Source: an uncultured Gammaproteobacteria bacterium
Lineage (GTDB): Bacteria; Pseudomonadota; Gammaproteobacteria; Arenicellales; JAANXG01
Length of the DNA: 64,000 bases
NCBI GenBank assembly: GCA_947258975.1
Contig: CAMYKK010000018.1
Coordinates: 46,115-110,114, forward strand
Reading direction: 5' to 3'
Shown piece by piece: positions 8,820 through 39,418 of the stretch. The position numbers and the translations under genes are program-made. The notes beneath the pieces are model-generated. The model made no database searches. It was not told the origin of the DNA and saw only the letters and a program-made list of their open reading frames with translations. Each line of letters starts with the position of its first letter. Within the stretch, counting starts at the first letter, position 1.

Positions 8820-9572
8820 ATGCCTGCAGAACGGTTGAAGGTCATCCCTGCGCGCTGGCCGGCACCGCAACGGGTGCGCGCGTTTACGACCACGCGGGCC
8901 GGCGGTGTCAGTGGGGGAGCCTTCGCCGAGTTGAATCTTGCTGATCACGTTGGTGACGATACACAGAGGGTGGCGGAGAACCGCCGCCGCCTGGTCCGCG
9001 TGGGCGGCTTGCCGGGTGAGCCGTTGTGGTTGACGCAGGTGCATGGAAACCGTGTCGTCAAAGCAACCGCGACGGCGCAAAATGCGCGGGCAGATAGCAG
9101 CTTTGTTGATCGAACCGGGGTGGTATGCGCGGTGTTGACTGCTGATTGCATGCCTGTATTTCTGTGTGACCGCTTGGGCAACCGGGTCGGCATCGTTCAC
9201 GTAGGGTGGCGCGGGCTGGCGGCCGGCGTATTAGAGAACACCCTCGAGCAGTTTGCGGTGGCACGTTCCGAGGTGCTCGCATGGTTGGGACCGGCAATCG
9301 GACCACGGGCTTTTGAAATCGGCGCAGACGTAATAACCGCGCTGTACGACGGGCAGCCCGGTTTCGAATCCTGTTTCACTCAAGCCGAACAGGCACAAAA
9401 ATGGATGGCGAACCTTTACGCGCTGGCGTGCCGGCGATTGCGTTATGCTGGGATCGAAAACTGTTTCTGCGACGAATCGCTGTGCACGTTCAGCCAGCCC
9501 GACCAGTTTTTCTCGTACCGCCGTGATCGCGATTGCGGACGCATGGCATCCGTGATCTGGATCGATCCTTGA
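8820..9572 (+). CDS. pgeF: PgeF/YfiH laccase-domain protein (peptidoglycan editing factor or purine-nucleoside enzyme)
   Basis: A multicopper-laccase-fold protein of the YfiH/DUF152 family. Metal-site motifs are visible: THVHGN-type segment (LTQVHGNRVV), VLTADCMPVFL, IVHVGWRGLAAGVLENTL and LGPAIGPRAFEIG, with a C-terminal CTFSQPDQFFSYRRDRDCGRM. The frame is open from 8745, only 3 bp after rluD, but the ATG at 8820 gives 250 residues, close to the E. coli protein, and puts the family-typical beginning near the N-terminus. Members were reported to clear wrongly linked peptidoglycan and to act on purine nucleosides; which applies here is not decided by sequence. Confidence 0.88.
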   Translation: MPAERLKVIPARWPAPQRVRAFTTTRAGGVSGGAFAELNLADHVGDDTQRVAENRRRLVRVGGLPGEPLWLTQVHGNRVVKATATAQNARADSSFVDRTGVVCAVLTADCMPVFLCDRLGNRVGIVHVGWRGLAAGVLENTLEQFAVARSEVLAWLGPAIGPRAFEIGADVITALYDGQPGFESCFTQAEQAQKWMANLYALACRRLRYAGIENCFCDESLCTFSQPDQFFSYRRDRDCGRMASVIWIDP

Positions 9573-9721: not shown

Positions 9722-10480
9722 ATGCACATTACCCATCAATTGTTACTTCGCTGGTTGTTGTTTGTGACCGCCGTCGCCGTCGGCCTGACGGTGGCCTGGC
9801 ATCAGGGCCTATTCCATATCTTGTTCAAAAATGACGCCAGCAGGTTGTCCATTGTGATTGTCGGCGTATTTGTAATGTCGTCAATTCATGCAGGCTGGTT
9901 GATACTACGATTGTCAAGGCACATCAACCACGTCAATACGATTGCGCAGTTGTTGGACCGGGATCAACAATCGCAGATTGTGGTGAAAAACAGTGAGGTG
10001 GTCTTTGGATATTCAGCCGTGCTGCCGGACGGACCGTTGACTGAGCATATTCACAATCTAGCGCGCCGCCTCAGTAATTCAGCAGCAACCCACCCTTTCG
10101 CAAACGATCAAAGCCAATTATTGGACGCATTGTCGAAGCGAATTAGGTCACCGCAACAACTTGGTTGGCTGATCGCGGATTTGATGATTAAGCTCGGTCT
10201 TCTTGGCACCGTGATTGGATTCATCTTAATGCTTCAGTCCGTGCCCACCGTAGAGGATCTGGACATTTCCGCGATACAGACGATGTTGTCGAAGATGAGC
10301 GACGGCATGCGCGTCGCGTTGTTTACGACATTGTGCGGTTTGATCGGCGGCGTACTCGCCGGGATCCAGTATCATATCGCCGATCGCGGTGCCGATGAGT
10401 TGATAGCCGGCATAACCGAGGTGTCCGAGATCCATGCAGCGCCGCGGCTTGCCAGCGGAAACGAGATCCAGCGGTATTAG
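9722..10480 (+). CDS. MotA/TolQ/ExbB-family proton-channel subunit
   Basis: A 252-residue inner-membrane protein with four predicted helices: about 6-32 and 42-66 near the N-terminus, then after a cytoplasmic stretch of ~85 residues about 158-182 and 200-230. The last pair carries the family core (KLGLLGTVIGFILML and MRVALFTTLCGLIGG), matching the GLLGTV..G and AL.TT..GL signatures of MotA/TolQ/ExbB channels. The ATG at 9722 is preferred over the upstream frame, which has no coding character. The next two genes encode single- and double-pass membrane proteins in the same transcript; no tolR, tolA, tonB or flagellar gene is nearby, so the complex is neither Tol, Ton nor flagellar on present evidence. 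Confidence 0.8.
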   Translation: MHITHQLLLRWLLFVTAVAVGLTVAWHQGLFHILFKNDASRLSIVIVGVFVMSSIHAGWLILRLSRHINHVNTIAQLLDRDQQSQIVVKNSEVVFGYSAVLPDGPLTEHIHNLARRLSNSAATHPFANDQSQLLDALSKRIRSPQQLGWLIADLMIKLGLLGTVIGFILMLQSVPTVEDLDISAIQTMLSKMSDGMRVALFTTLCGLIGGVLAGIQYHIADRGADELIAGITEVSEIHAAPRLASGNEIQRY

Positions 10481-10484
10481 TGCC

Positions 10485-11078
10485 GTGCACAACCACCGTT
10501 ATCTAACCGACCCATTCACCGATCTCCTTTTCAACGCCCTGTTGGGGTTCACGTTTCTTTTCCTAGTGGCGATCATGTTGGTTAATCCGGTCAACAAAAC
10601 CGGGGTGGTGGATCCAAAGGCGGAGTTCATTATCACCGCGAGCTGGCCCGAGGACCGGGCGGATGATGTGGACCTTTGGGTGGAGGATCCACACGGCGAG
10701 ATCGTGTCATATTTGCAGCGGGATGCGGGATGGATGCATTTGGACCGGGACGACCGTGGTGAGATCAACGACACCGTGGAGATAGACGGGCGCACGGTGG
10801 TGTATCCCATTAATCAGGAAATCGTCACGCTAAGGGGCACCATTACCGGTCAATATGTTGTCAATGTGTACTATTATCAATCAGTCCGCGGGGAACCGGT
10901 TCCGGTCACCCTTAAGGTCGAACGCGTCAACCCGGAATTCAAACTTGCCTTCGTCGATAAGGTCGTGCTGGAGGCGCAGGATGTGGAGAAAACGGTGGTT
11001 CGGTTTACCGTGACCAGCGATCGCGAAATCAAGGACATCCGGCGCACGCCGAAGGTGCTGACACCGTATTTCTTATGA
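10485..11078 (+). CDS. Single-pass membrane protein, MotB/ExbD-like anchor with DUF2135-like outer domain
   Basis: About 197 residues from the GTG at 10485; the frame is open from 10434 inside the previous gene, so the start is uncertain and no good ribosome site is visible. Residues 8-33 form one membrane helix preceded and entered by acidic residues (TDPFTDLLFNALLGFTFLF), the arrangement of the proton-accepting Asp in MotB, ExbD and ZorB. The rest (~160 residues) should lie in the periplasm. It contains DVDLWVEDPHGEIVSY and GQYVVNVYYYQ, resembling DUF2135-type beta-sandwich domains, and no OmpA peptidoglycan-binding motif. Its stop overlaps the next ATG (ATGA). The combination looks like a force-transducing stator subunit with an unusual outer domain; that role is inference. 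Confidence 0.65.
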   Translation: MHNHRYLTDPFTDLLFNALLGFTFLFLVAIMLVNPVNKTGVVDPKAEFIITASWPEDRADDVDLWVEDPHGEIVSYLQRDAGWMHLDRDDRGEINDTVEIDGRTVVYPINQEIVTLRGTITGQYVVNVYYYQSVRGEPVPVTLKVERVNPEFKLAFVDKVVLEAQDVEKTVVRFTVTSDREIKDIRRTPKVLTPYFL

Positions 11079-11596
11079 TCACCGCGATCATTGGCTTGGT
11101 GACGCTGGTTCTGGTCTTATCGTTGCTGCTGTTGAGCCTAAACGTCGGCACCACTTGGCCATGGCAGATCAAGGCCGGCGCGATTGTCGCGACGATGTTA
11201 ACCGTGGTCATGAGCTACTTCGCCCTGCATGAGTTGCTGGGATGGCCGACCGGCCAAGATATGCCCGGCAACATGCGAATACTCTCGGCAGATATTGTCG
11301 AACCGAGAAAGGGCAGCAATGAGAAGGGCGCGATATACGTCTGGGTGAAACCGATTGGCGACAACAACGCGCTGCCGCGCGCTTACGAGCTGCCATACGA
11401 TCCGGACTTTCATGAAATGATCATCGCTGCGTTGGCAAGGTTGAGCCAGGGAATCAAACAGGGTGTGCGTCGCAATCCGGATTATGATGAGATCACGTCC
11501 GGCCAGGGCCGCGGTTTGCCGCTGAACTTTTTCGACATTAAACCACTCCGGCTGCCTGCGAAAACCGGTCAACGATTGCGTGAAGAGGCTCGTTAA
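11075..11596 (+). CDS. Two-helix membrane protein of the motor-like triad, unknown function
   Basis: A 173-residue protein with two helices at about 2-22 and 33-55, the second ending FALHELLG. A soluble domain of ~115 residues follows, with KGAIYVWVKPIGDNN, an acidic YDPDFHEMIIAALARLSQGIKQG helix, and a basic C-terminus. I recognise no family. It overlaps the upstream gene by 4 bp, so it is translationally coupled and probably part of the same complex as the MotA/ExbB-like protein. The gene ends in a TAA that belongs to an inverted repeat shared with the convergent nadC. Confidence 0.6.
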   Translation: MITAIIGLVTLVLVLSLLLLSLNVGTTWPWQIKAGAIVATMLTVVMSYFALHELLGWPTGQDMPGNMRILSADIVEPRKGSNEKGAIYVWVKPIGDNNALPRAYELPYDPDFHEMIIAALARLSQGIKQGVRRNPDYDEITSGQGRGLPLNFFDIKPLRLPAKTGQRLREEAR

Positions 11597-23471: not shown

Positions 23472-25257
<1,786 letters not shown>

Positions 25258-25261
<4 letters not shown>

Positions 25262-26658
25262 TCGACCCCCAGCGCTGTCTGTTTCACACCGGTCTGACCA
25301 GCATCCAGGGCCCGTTGATTTTCGTACGTAACGCCCAAGGTGTCGGACTGTATGAGCGGGTTGAAGTGCGCGCCATGCACGATGATGTGCGCCTCGGCCG
25401 CGTCGTGTTGATCGCCGATGACAAGGTGATTGTGGAGGTGTTTCAGGGGACCGAAGGTTTGTCCCTGGGCGAAGCGCGCGTCAAGTTCCTGTCGGAATCC
25501 ATACTGTTGAATGTCGGACCTTCCATGCTCGGTAGAATCTACAATGGGGTGGGTGCGCCCATAGACGGTGGTCCCGAGATTGTCGCCAGACGGCGTCTGC
25601 GTATCGATGGTAATGCGATCAATCCCGTGCGCCGCGTGGTGCCCCGGGAGTTCATCGAGACCGGTGTCGCGGCCATCGATGCCATGAATTCGTTGGTGCG
25701 CGGACAAAAATTGCCGATATTTTCCGGCAGCGGTCTCAGTCATGATCGCCTGGCGTCCAATATCGCGCGATTTTCGCGCCTGCGCGGGACACAAGCCGAA
25801 AAGTTCGCGGTCGTGTTTGCGGCGATCGGCGTCACGTTCGACACCGCGGAGCATTTCCGACGGGAGATGGACGAATACGGCGCGATGCAGCGCATTGCGT
25901 TATTTTTGAATCTCGCCAGCGATCCAAGCGCGGAAAGGCTGTTGACGCCCAGGGTCGCTCTGACTGCGGCGGAGTATCTCGCCTATGAGGAAGGCCGCCA
26001 CGTATTGGTGATCTTGACCGACATGACCAACTATTGTGAGGCGCTTCGCGAGGTGTCCTCGAGTCATGGCGAAGTACCAAGCCGCAAGGGATATCCCGGC
26101 TACATGTACTCGGATCTGGCAAGTATTTACGAGCGCGCCGGCAGGATCTCCGGCCGCCCGGGATCGATCACGCAGATACCGATTCTTAGCATGCCCAACG
26201 ATGATATTACCCATCCGATTCCGGATTTGTCCGGTTATATTACCGAGGGACAGATCGTTCTGGATCGCGAGCTGGACCGCCGGGGCATCTTTCCACCGAT
26301 TAAGTTGTTGCCCTGTCTGTCGCGGCTCATGAATCACGGCATCGGTAAGAATATGACCCATGTCGATCATCCCGCCTTCGCGCAGCAACTGTATTCCTCC
26401 TATGCGCAGGCGCATCATCTACGACTGTTATCGAGTGTCGTCGGTGAGGAGGGGCTGTCTGCGGCCGACCGCCAGCTGCTGCGGTTCGGTGAACGTATGG
26501 ATGACGAATTCATTCGTCAGGACGATTTCCGGCGCACACTGGAGGAGACGTTTGACCTCGGTTGGATGCTGTTGGCCGAGCTACCGGATGAGGTCCTGGT
26601 GCGGCTGTCGGATGATCAGATTGACGAGCACATCAAACGTCACCGTCATGACTCATGA
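25258..26658 (+). CDS. V/A-type ATPase regulatory subunit B
   Basis: A 466-residue non-catalytic subunit alternating with A in the hexamer. Motifs: GPLIFVRNAQGVGLYERVEV, STEGL-like segment GTEGLSLGEARVKF, PSMLGRIYNGVGAPIDGGP, the degenerate nucleotide loop PIFSGSGLSHDRLA, and TDMTNYCEALREVSSSHGEVPSRKGYPGYMYSDLA in pieces. The P-loop lysine is missing, as is normal for B. The stop lies 11 bp inside the start of subunit D. Confidence 0.96.
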
Positions 26659-37427: not shown

Positions 37428-38057
37428 ATGAATGATAACAGCCAAAAGTCCGGTCCCATTCCGCAAGGTATTGGCTTGGTGCCGATGGTGGTCGAGAGTA
37501 CCGGCCGGGGCGAGCGCGCATTCGATATTTATTCAAGAATGCTGAAAGAACGTGTGGTTTTTCTGGTTGGCGCCGTGGATGACCATATGGCCAACTTGAT
37601 TGTGGCCCAGTTGCTGTTTCTGGAATCGGAAAATCCGGACAAAGACATTCATCTTTACGTCAACAGCCCTGGTGGAGCAGTCAACGCCGGACTCGCCATC
37701 TACGATACGATGCAGTTCATCAAACCCGACGTCAGCACCGTTGTCGTGGGCCAGGCGGCCAGCATGGGTGCGTTGATTCTCGCCGGTGGAGCAAAGGATA
37801 AACGGCACTCCTTACCCCACGCGCGCATCATGATTCATCAGCCTTGGGGCGGTTTTCAGGGGCAAGCGACCGATATCGAGATCCATGCCAACGAGATCCT
37901 GCGGATTCGTGAGCGGCTCAACCAGATTCTGGTCACTCATACCGGGCAGCCCATGGAGACGATTTCGCGCGATACGGATAGAGATTTTTTCATGGGCGGG
38001 GAAGAAGCGGTAGAATATGGGCTTATTGACACCGTTATCAGAAACCGCGAGAAGTGA
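37428..38057 (+). CDS. clpP: ATP-dependent Clp protease proteolytic subunit
   Basis: A 209-residue serine protease forming two heptameric rings. The catalytic Ser is residue 112 ([14 protein letters not shown]), His residue 137 (MIHQPWGG) and the Asp lies in [11 protein letters not shown] short N-terminal propeptide is present, as in E. coli. It partners ClpX (next gene) and ClpA elsewhere. Confidence 0.98.
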
Positions 38058-38084
38058 CAAGCGCAGTATTTCGCGGTTTTGATG

Positions 38085-38113
38085 CTTGCAAAATTTTTAC
38101 GGAACCTGCATCT
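38085..38113 (+). promoter_or_regulatory. Weak heat-shock-like promoter before clpX
   Basis: CTTGCA (38085-38090), 15 bp, and CTGCATCT (38106-38113) resemble the sigma-32 pattern with the same spacer as clpB, htpG and lon, but three positions differ. It lies 28 bp before the clpX start. Confidence 0.3.
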
Positions 38114-38140
38114 TTGTAGCTCGGTGCTGGGTTAGAGACG

Positions 38141-39418
38141 ATGGCGGACGACAAACACGACGGCAAGAGCGAGAAACTCCTTTACTGCTCATTCTGTGGT
38201 AAGAGCCAGCACGAGGTCCGCAAGCTGATTGCCGGCCCTTCGGTGTTCATCTGCGACGAGTGCGTCGAGCTGTGCAATGACATCATTCGCGAGGAGGTGC
38301 AAGAGGGCATTGAGGAGTCCGATTCTCAAAGCAAGTTCCCCAAGCCCAATGACATCTGCCACATCCTTGATGAGTATGTAATCGGTCAGCAGGATGCAAA
38401 AAAGGTACTATCTGTCGCCGTCTACAATCATTACAAACGGATTGAACACGAGGACAAGGTCGGCGACGTCGATATCTCCAAGAGCAATATCTTGCTGATC
38501 GGACCCACGGGTTCAGGAAAGACATTGTTAGCGGAGACCCTGGCTCGTCAGTTGAATGTCCCATTCACCATTGCCGATGCAACGACGCTCACCGAAGCCG
38601 GATACGTGGGCGAGGATGTTGAAAACATCATTCAAAAGTTGCTGCAAAAATGCGATTACGATATTGAAAAAGCCCAGATCGGTATCGTTTACATCGATGA
38701 AATTGACAAGATCTCCCGGAAATCCGACAACCCGTCGATCACCCGGGATGTATCCGGGGAAGGGGTGCAGCAGGCGCTGTTGAAATTGATCGAAGGCACT
38801 ATCGCCTCGGTCCCGCCCCAGGGTGGACGCAAACACCCACAACAGGAGTTTTTGCAAGTCGACACCCGCAATATCTTGTTCATCTGCGGTGGCGCGTTCT
38901 CGGGGTTGGAGAAGATTATTCAGGATCGTTCGGAAAAGAGCAGTATTGGATTTGGCGCGGATATCAAGAGCAAGTCAGACGGCCGCAATGTTGGCGAGAT
39001 ACTGCGGGAACTCGAGCCCGAAGATCTCATCAAGTACGGCTTGATTCCCGAGTTTGTCGGACGGTTGCCTATCGTCGCGACCCTGGAGGAGCTTGACGAA
39101 GACGCCCTGGTGTCGATCTTGACCGAGCCGAAAAACGCCCTGGTAAAGCAATACCAGAAACTGCTCAAGCTGGAAGGCGTGGATCTCGAGATTCGTGAAG
39201 ATGCGTTGCGCGCAGTGGCCAAAAAAGCCATGGACCGTAAAACCGGCGCGCGGGGCCTGCGTTCAATTCTGGAAACCGCACTTCTGGACACGATGTACGA
39301 GTTACCGTCCATGGAGGGGGTAAAGAAGGTCATTGTGGATGCGAGTGTCATCACCGAGGGCGCGCGTCCGTTGTATATTTACGAAGAGGCTGAACAGAAG
39401 CAGGCCTCTACCCACTAA
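38141..39418 (+). CDS. clpX: Clp protease ATPase subunit ClpX
   Basis: A 425-residue AAA+ unfoldase delivering substrates to ClpP. Residues 12-50 form the zinc-binding domain with four cysteines ([18 protein letters not shown]). The AAA+ module has Walker [16 protein letters not shown], Walker [11 protein letters not shown], pore loop GYVGEDVE and a recognisable IGF loop for ClpP docking (SSIGFGADI). It is 83 bp from clpP. Confidence 0.98.

Follow-up and report, generated by a model that had tools for sequence, protein, structure and literature searches.

A conserved three-gene MotA/ExbB-type unit with a DUF2135-like subunit, a putative ion-driven envelope complex of Proteobacteria and of Rhizobiaceae phages

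To our knowledge, few ion-driven families of the 5:2 type have been described, and each of them powers a distinct process of the cell envelope. TolQR-TolA and ExbBD-TonB combine a MotA_ExbB subunit with pore threonines, a partner with an Asp in its helix and a further membrane subunit, encoded by adjacent genes, and these features, including the register of the Asp, recur in the locus described here. Passages of the report on the TolAQR structure place TolQ T145 and T178 and TolR Asp23 at the pore (PMC12215075). The flagellar stators MotAB and PomAB are also similar, as four helices are predicted in our A subunit, as in MotA, and our B subunit has one helix with an Asp. Of the Zorya proteins ZorAB, ZorA is weakly matched by A across ~60–70 positions of its models, and an 80-residue stretch of the outer domain of B aligns with YfaP, a DUF2135 protein of Escherichia coli. 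Sections of a survey of generic ion transporters (GIT) describe non-flagellar pairs of A and B with a variety of additional domains, some of them of unknown function, and put DUF3450 and DUF2341 on A subunits; a DUF2135-like B, a third subunit C and phage copies are not mentioned in those sections (PMC12505986). No title or abstract opening found among open-licence PMC papers described such a trio, DUF2135 was mentioned in none of the papers searched there, and none was found that joined phage, ExbB, MotA and spanin. Likewise, no such protein appeared in the available portions of PMC13299392, PMC5537653 and PMC10460002, or by word search of PMC12429752.

The window, that is, the whole stretch of DNA that was analysed, comprises 64,000 nucleotides of an uncultured gammaproteobacterium (G000:C18:46115-110114; assembly of 5.49 Mb in 214 contigs). 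Hydropathy predicts four helices in the product of its gene A, one in B and two in C. The features are as follows:

9722..10480, + strand: gene A, MotA/ExbB-type subunit, 252 aa, four predicted helices (PF01618, hydropathy; own-genome match C18:56244-56522)
10208..10210, + strand: codon of A Thr163, aligned on TolQ Thr145 (hhalign; Thr in 106/110 A proteins)
10328..10330, + strand: codon of A Thr203, aligned on TolQ Thr178 (hhalign; Thr in 110/110 A proteins)
10434..11078, + strand: gene B, one N-terminal helix plus outer domain (open from ATG 10434, 214 aa)
10521..10523, + strand: codon of B Asp30, candidate ion-carrying residue (Asp in 104/112 bacterial and 26/27 phage B proteins)
10611..11054, + strand: B outer domain, DUF2135/YfaP-like (invariant residues, hhalign with YfaP, PF09906 matches)
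11075..11596, + strand: gene C, two helices plus C-terminal domain, 173 aa (no known family; loop charge pattern in 99 members)

Gene C overlaps B by 4 bases. The likelier start of B is an in-frame GTG at 10485, because its 197-aa product is closer to the usual length of the homologues (~200 aa). The frame of A is open from a TTG at 9533, overlapping the end of a laccase-domain gene (9572), and ATG 9722 was preferred because it better matches homologue lengths. Upstream of the trio are genes for an RNA pseudouridylate synthase and the laccase-domain protein; downstream are those for a quinolinate phosphoribosyltransferase and for a histidine-specific methyltransferase, and at a greater distance a ClpB-type protein is encoded. 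None of these neighbours is a gene of tol, ton, flagella or defence. The isolation from tol, ton, flagellar and Zorya genes proposed in the first-pass annotation holds for these neighbours of the window trio; in the wider family, certain clades show recurrent partners, and phages also carry the trio. A scan at the locus gave 3 promoter-like sites against 1.9 in shuffles, and 1 terminator-like site against 2.5. Against four relatives, Ka/Ks was 0.018–0.195 in 9 of 12 comparisons, the other three being saturated and several Ks values exceeding 1, which makes these estimates rough; on these values, A, B and C are taken as real genes under purifying selection. The same genome carries a second trio (contig C57, L083 14662-17278), whose B is 50% identical and which is accompanied by a DUF3108-like lipoprotein gene; a sigma-54 activator gene lies upstream of it. 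The genome has seven further MotA_ExbB matches; five ExbD matches also occur, every one of them close to one of the seven.

Subunit A matched PF01618 in Pfam with 39.6 bits (cut-off 22.9), which places it by its MotA_ExbB domain in the superfamily of 5:2 motors. Counting along the hhalign alignment, the two pore threonines of TolQ, T145 and T178, are matched by A T163 and A T203, respectively; T163 is Thr in 106 of 110 bacterial A proteins and T203 in all 110. In a quick tree with 33 of the 110 trio A proteins and two of the seven own-genome loci, the trio proteins branched apart from TolQ, ExbB, MotA and the two own-genome relatives, with a support of 82. The NCBIfam and PADLOC scans also returned a partial match of A to a HemY model (22.8 bits, cut-off 142).

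Subunit B has a single helix in 112 of 112 proteins, followed by an outer domain in which W71, D78, D80, P86, R105, D106, D107, G109, E129, R134 and G139 are invariant in the same 112. This domain had been read from the sequence as resembling DUF2135 rather than OmpA. In agreement with the first part, hhalign aligned an 80-residue stretch of B with E. coli YfaP (P 6e-5, probability 65%; in a second run 1.2e-4, 55%), while ExbD, TolR and MotB each remained below 1% (MotB 0.3%). In Pfam the resemblance is weak: PF09906 (DUF2135) was matched at E<=1 by 10 of 39 B proteins, the best at 8.8e-4, and by three of nine scanned singly; but the best score known in bits, 18.0, lies under the curated cut-off of 22, and window B itself had no PF09906 match in Pfam. 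No OmpA-like domain was matched in Pfam by window B or the 39 B proteins, and PF02472, the ExbD/TolR domain, was absent from the matches of window B (E<=10) and of the 39 (E<=1). A PDB search with B gave no clear structural relative (best E 0.49), and neither B nor C of the window had a convincing family in Pfam, NCBIfam or PADLOC. Weak matches to the B profile (E 3e-10 and 4e-4) were seen in two ORFs of ~1100 aa (L210 5083-8439 and L212 2215-5475), the second of which includes a DUF2135 match.

The Asp in the motif TDLLFNALLGF of the helix corresponds to B D30 (bases 10521-10523) and had been proposed to sit where the ion-carrying Asp of known stators does. In the best ungapped register of the helices, D30 falls on ExbD D25 and MotB D32, and 104 of 112 B proteins keep it; in TolR, however, residues 19 and 23 tie, and the other eight B proteins have Val (5) or Ala (3) instead. 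The ExbD alignment is a rough one, a frame having been obtained for 17 of 30 loci, and 15 of its 19 rows carry Asp at that position. The helix score is no better than that of column shuffles (reached by 693 of 2000 for ExbD and 187 of 500 for MotB), so it is the register that supports the likeness between the helices of B and ExbD. On plasmid records of Azospirillum, seven weak B matches (H1-H7; ~31% identity over 42–43%) start at the helix Asp.

The eight B proteins without D30 (L063 8353, L064 8563, L067 5514, L202 7795, L203 8143, L204 943, L205 7128 and L211 7673) share FD, five residues and then LFKxxQ, so that a Lys stands four positions after the lost Asp and a Gln three positions after that Lys, and their partner A proteins retain T163 and T203. 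Their complexes may use another coupling residue, may carry no ion, or may be inactive forms. The tree requires two changes for the loss of D30, and a test with the helix omitted was compatible with one origin (62 rows, p 0.51); as one origin is not rejected, no convergent loss is claimed. In the three of these loci that have YkuD/DUF302 neighbours, C is doubled in tandem (L063 7267-8309, L064 9199-10253 and L067 6137-7243).

Two helices were predicted in 98 of 104 C members, as the earlier reading of C as a two-helix protein of no known family would have it. Even with the threshold relaxed to E 0.1, seven was the most of the 77 C proteins that any one Pfam family matched, TonB_C was not among the matches listed for C, and a PDB search found no chain up to E 10. 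In 99 members, the loop between the helices has on average 2.3 Lys/Arg and 0.2 Asp/Glu, the corresponding means for the part after helix 2 being 1.3 and 1.7, and because of this charge pattern the C-terminal domain of C is probably periplasmic.

Taken against the described systems, the trio departs from each of them. Membership of Ton/Tol was rejected, since B has no PF02472 and a DUF2135-like outer domain, C has two helices, and no tonB or tolA/tolB/pal lies beside the window trio (elsewhere, chosen neighbours were scanned). Membership of the flagellar stators was rejected as B has no OmpA-like peptidoglycan-binding domain, and no flagellar genes adjoin the window trio. Zorya was rejected because A, with 252 aa, lacks the long tail of ZorA, whose models span 383–699 positions, and B matches no ZorB model in PADLOC. 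The yfaA-yfaP cluster of E. coli, in contrast to the trio, contains no MotA/ExbB gene in the stretch read. As it lacks features that define Ton/Tol, the flagellar stators and Zorya, the trio is best read as a separate, new family within the 5:2 motor superfamily, apparently used by both bacteria and phages.

Among 41 genomes of relatives, the own genome counted, 18 had homologues of B, as did 31 of 274 genomes of the class. A profile search of the phylum found them in 17 of 398 genomes, 12 of the 17 beyond the class; in one of the 17 (G453), the match lies within a 1118-aa ORF, without A or C alongside. A scan of named contigs gave 374 B relatives among 413 stretches, of which the best 80 were retained, most of them titled Gammaproteobacteria and mostly metagenome-assembled; the cultured strain Methylohalomonas lacus HMT 1 (L144) is among the bearers. 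Altogether, 130 loci were fetched, which with the window gave 112 loci with distinct B ends. Gene A was directly upstream of B (overlap or gap <150 bases) in 110 of these, and C was directly downstream in 105. The two loci without A were one whose contig begins in B (L131) and a distant one (L208). An adjacent C was missing where the contig ends (L127, L158), where C lies 3.7 kb away (L078), where a weaker C is found ~0.4 kb away (L209), and where the C match is inside an overlong ORF (L206); in L080 and L208, C was searched for and none was found. A-B-C is thus a conserved gene unit, as the first-pass annotation had suggested from one locus, and among the neighbours scanned the homologues did not cluster with tol, ton or defence genes.

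The trio is also present in phages. By tblastn, window B matched 27 of 50,697 phage records, 25 of Rhizobium and 2 of Sinorhizobium phages, and the protein of phage 16-3 as query returned 27 records again, or 19 different phages by name; the hosts are nitrogen-fixing soil bacteria. In seven phage stretches, the bacterial profiles detected A at E 2e-22 to 1e-5, and B and C at E 8e-10 to 2e-7; the genes follow in the order A, B, C, sometimes with small genes interposed. Searches of viral contigs yielded one locus from 68 stretches and 22 from 239, and none among three stretches when window B was the query. With profiles that included phage members, a complete A-B-C in order on one strand was found in 27 of 30 viral loci—some of which are one phage twice—including 16-3-like phages and Pootjesviridae of Rhizobiaceae; of the incomplete loci, L270 ends in B, L271 has no C and L272 has no C downstream. 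The annotation of the phage B genes examined is either "hypothetical" or a bare number, and two phage trios had no match in PHROG. Of 27 distinct phage B proteins, 26 retain D30 although the rest of the helix differs, and the remaining one (L270) is truncated at that site. The 26 phage A proteins have Thr (17), Asn (7) or Ala (2) at T163, Thr (20) or Ser (6) at T203, and Ser (18), Thr (6) or another residue (2) at T202.

We therefore favour, with a probability of about 0.72, a reading in which the trio would form an inner-membrane complex working like the 5:2 ion-driven motors and acting on the envelope, with C as the likely transducer. The gene unit, the families, the conservation of the residues, the partners and the phage copies are established, and an ion-driven, 5:2, envelope-acting complex is consistent with them. 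By analogy with TolQR, ExbBD and MotAB, the A subunits would encircle two B helices, and protons or another ion would pass through protonation of B D30 against the ring of A T163 and T203. The movement would then be transmitted to the DUF2135-like outer domain of B and to C, which, as the constant third subunit, may act as TonB and TolA do elsewhere. Its target would be in the envelope, for example peptidoglycan or an outer-membrane partner. The motor-like part of this reading is argued for by PF01618, the order of the trio, D30, T163 and T203 and purifying selection, and also by the phage proteins, in which D30 stays in 26 of 27 and T203 is Thr or Ser in 26 of 26; the eight of 112 B proteins without D30 and the Asn or Ala at T163 of nine phage A proteins (7 and 2 of 26) count against it. 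Action on the envelope is suggested by the charge pattern of C and by the envelope type of the partners, namely an L,D-transpeptidase, DUF302, a VWA-FHA protein with a strong helix, and lipoproteins.

These partners are specific to clades. Counting genes on the same strand within 2.5–3.5 kb in the 112 loci, with families named on examples and with short contigs possibly concealing some partners, we found YkuD, DUF302 and VWA-FHA together near the trio in 15 loci, YkuD and DUF302 in 6, YkuD alone in 4, VWA-FHA alone in 3, a DUF3108-like lipoprotein in 13 and none of the sought partners in 71. In one locus (L101 6084-10601), the genes for YkuD, DUF302, A, B, C and VWA-FHA are codirectional with gaps of less than 75 bases; in a related one, the six-gene set is near accA and tilS. 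The VWA-FHA protein of L101 consists of a VWA region, one strong helix and a C-terminal FHA domain, the last a strong match. At 70% B identity, the 70 partnerless loci form 25 clusters. With the trio and ORFs antisense to it excluded, none of the neighbours occurred in more than five of these clusters, the commonest being the gene for a DUF255 thioredoxin-like protein. FHA domains bind phosphothreonine, and 18 of 112 loci have a codirectional VWA-FHA gene no more than 3 kb from the trio, so A and B might instead sense membrane energy or the state of the envelope and relay it to partners such as the FHA domain, without mechanical work. Such a signalling complex is improbable, as 71 of the 112 loci have none of these partners and window B sits in a 56-row clade without them (support 100). 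For the same reason, the trio is taken as the core of the proposed motor-like complex and VWA-FHA is not its core output; the partners, either VWA-FHA with the L,D-transpeptidase and DUF302 or the DUF3108-like lipoprotein, would tune it in their clades.

That the trio is an ordinary energiser of the Ton/Tol type, in which C replaces TonB or TolA and an outer-membrane transporter is powered, is decidedly improbable. It would agree with hhalign, by which A aligns with TolQ (P 1e-4) and ExbB (2e-4), and with MotA at just 0.04, but a PDB profile search with A gave MotA first (E 0.0015), then PomA and then a MotA/TolQ/ExbB-domain protein, with no TolQ or ExbB up to E 1, for which reason the closeness of A to TolQ is unsure. 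In addition, no scan found an ExbD domain in B, which aligns poorly with ExbD and TolR, and C has two helices and no TonB_C among the matches listed.

Many rhizobial phages carry the trio, and A matches parts of ZorA models weakly (E 1.4e-5 in PADLOC; in NCBIfam E 0.0021 and 17.2 bits, the cut-off being 100), which would suit an origin in defence or superinfection exclusion like that of Zorya, the chromosomal copies being a domesticated phage gene set. One chromosomal trio (L209) lies beside a trypsin-like protease gene, as in phages. Against this, B and C match no PADLOC model, the window trio lies between housekeeping genes, and chromosomal trios accompany YkuD, DUF302, VWA-FHA or lipoproteins, which makes such an origin highly improbable.

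The surroundings of the phage trios are of their own kind. Among 26 viral or prophage loci, 14 have a gene of one protease cluster upstream of the trio, and 15 have a gene of one exonuclease cluster downstream of it (clusters named from representatives). A gene for a trypsin-like protease precedes A in L248, L249, L256-L263, L268, L269 and L209, and this protease may be a phage-specific partner of the trio. A VWA protein near the trio of phage I1_18 (L250) was considered as a VWA-FHA partner and rejected, since it matches an RNA-binding protein, phrog_850. The trio of phage 16-3, a classical temperate phage that infects Sinorhizobium meliloti, is p038, p040 and p042. In AP-16-3, the genes at the position of the trio occupy 24,851-26,421, before the repressor C gene (37,748-38,530). 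According to passages of a report on phage 16-3, its late region ends at a chitinase-like ORF (16,823 bp) and the boundary between silent and early regions lies between the excisionase and the repressor, and a title from 1979 that it cites refers to a long arm that is genetically silent (PMC10460002). If the excisionase lies beyond the trio, and as far as those passages go, the AP-16-3 trio is in the silent region, a position that favours an accessory role over one in essential lysis. A part in lysis as a substitute for spanins is not favoured, given that RHph_TM3_3_14B (L277) has, besides trio B, an Rz-like spanin match next to a lysozyme gene, and that the trio of two 155 kb phages (N34 and RL2RES) is near genes for gyrase A, a late sigma factor and nucleases, even though endolysin clusters, named from two representatives, lie upstream in 9 and 8 of the 26 loci. 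For the motor-like reading, the shortened version in Rhizobiaceae phages would probably be an accessory device acting on the host envelope.

Another such family, with an outer domain and a third subunit of its own, would mean that an energised process of the envelope exists that has no name as yet; in this genome, which already has five ExbD genes, the trio is under purifying selection. At slightly less than even odds, and so tentatively, many Proteobacteria and tailed phages of Rhizobiaceae may possess undescribed three-subunit, ion-driven envelope machines, the phage form altering the host envelope during infection, for example by excluding other phages, and not serving lysis. To phage biologists, a virus equipped with an ion-driven membrane complex of its own would come as a surprise, and the phage copies, such as that of 16-3, make the trio directly testable.
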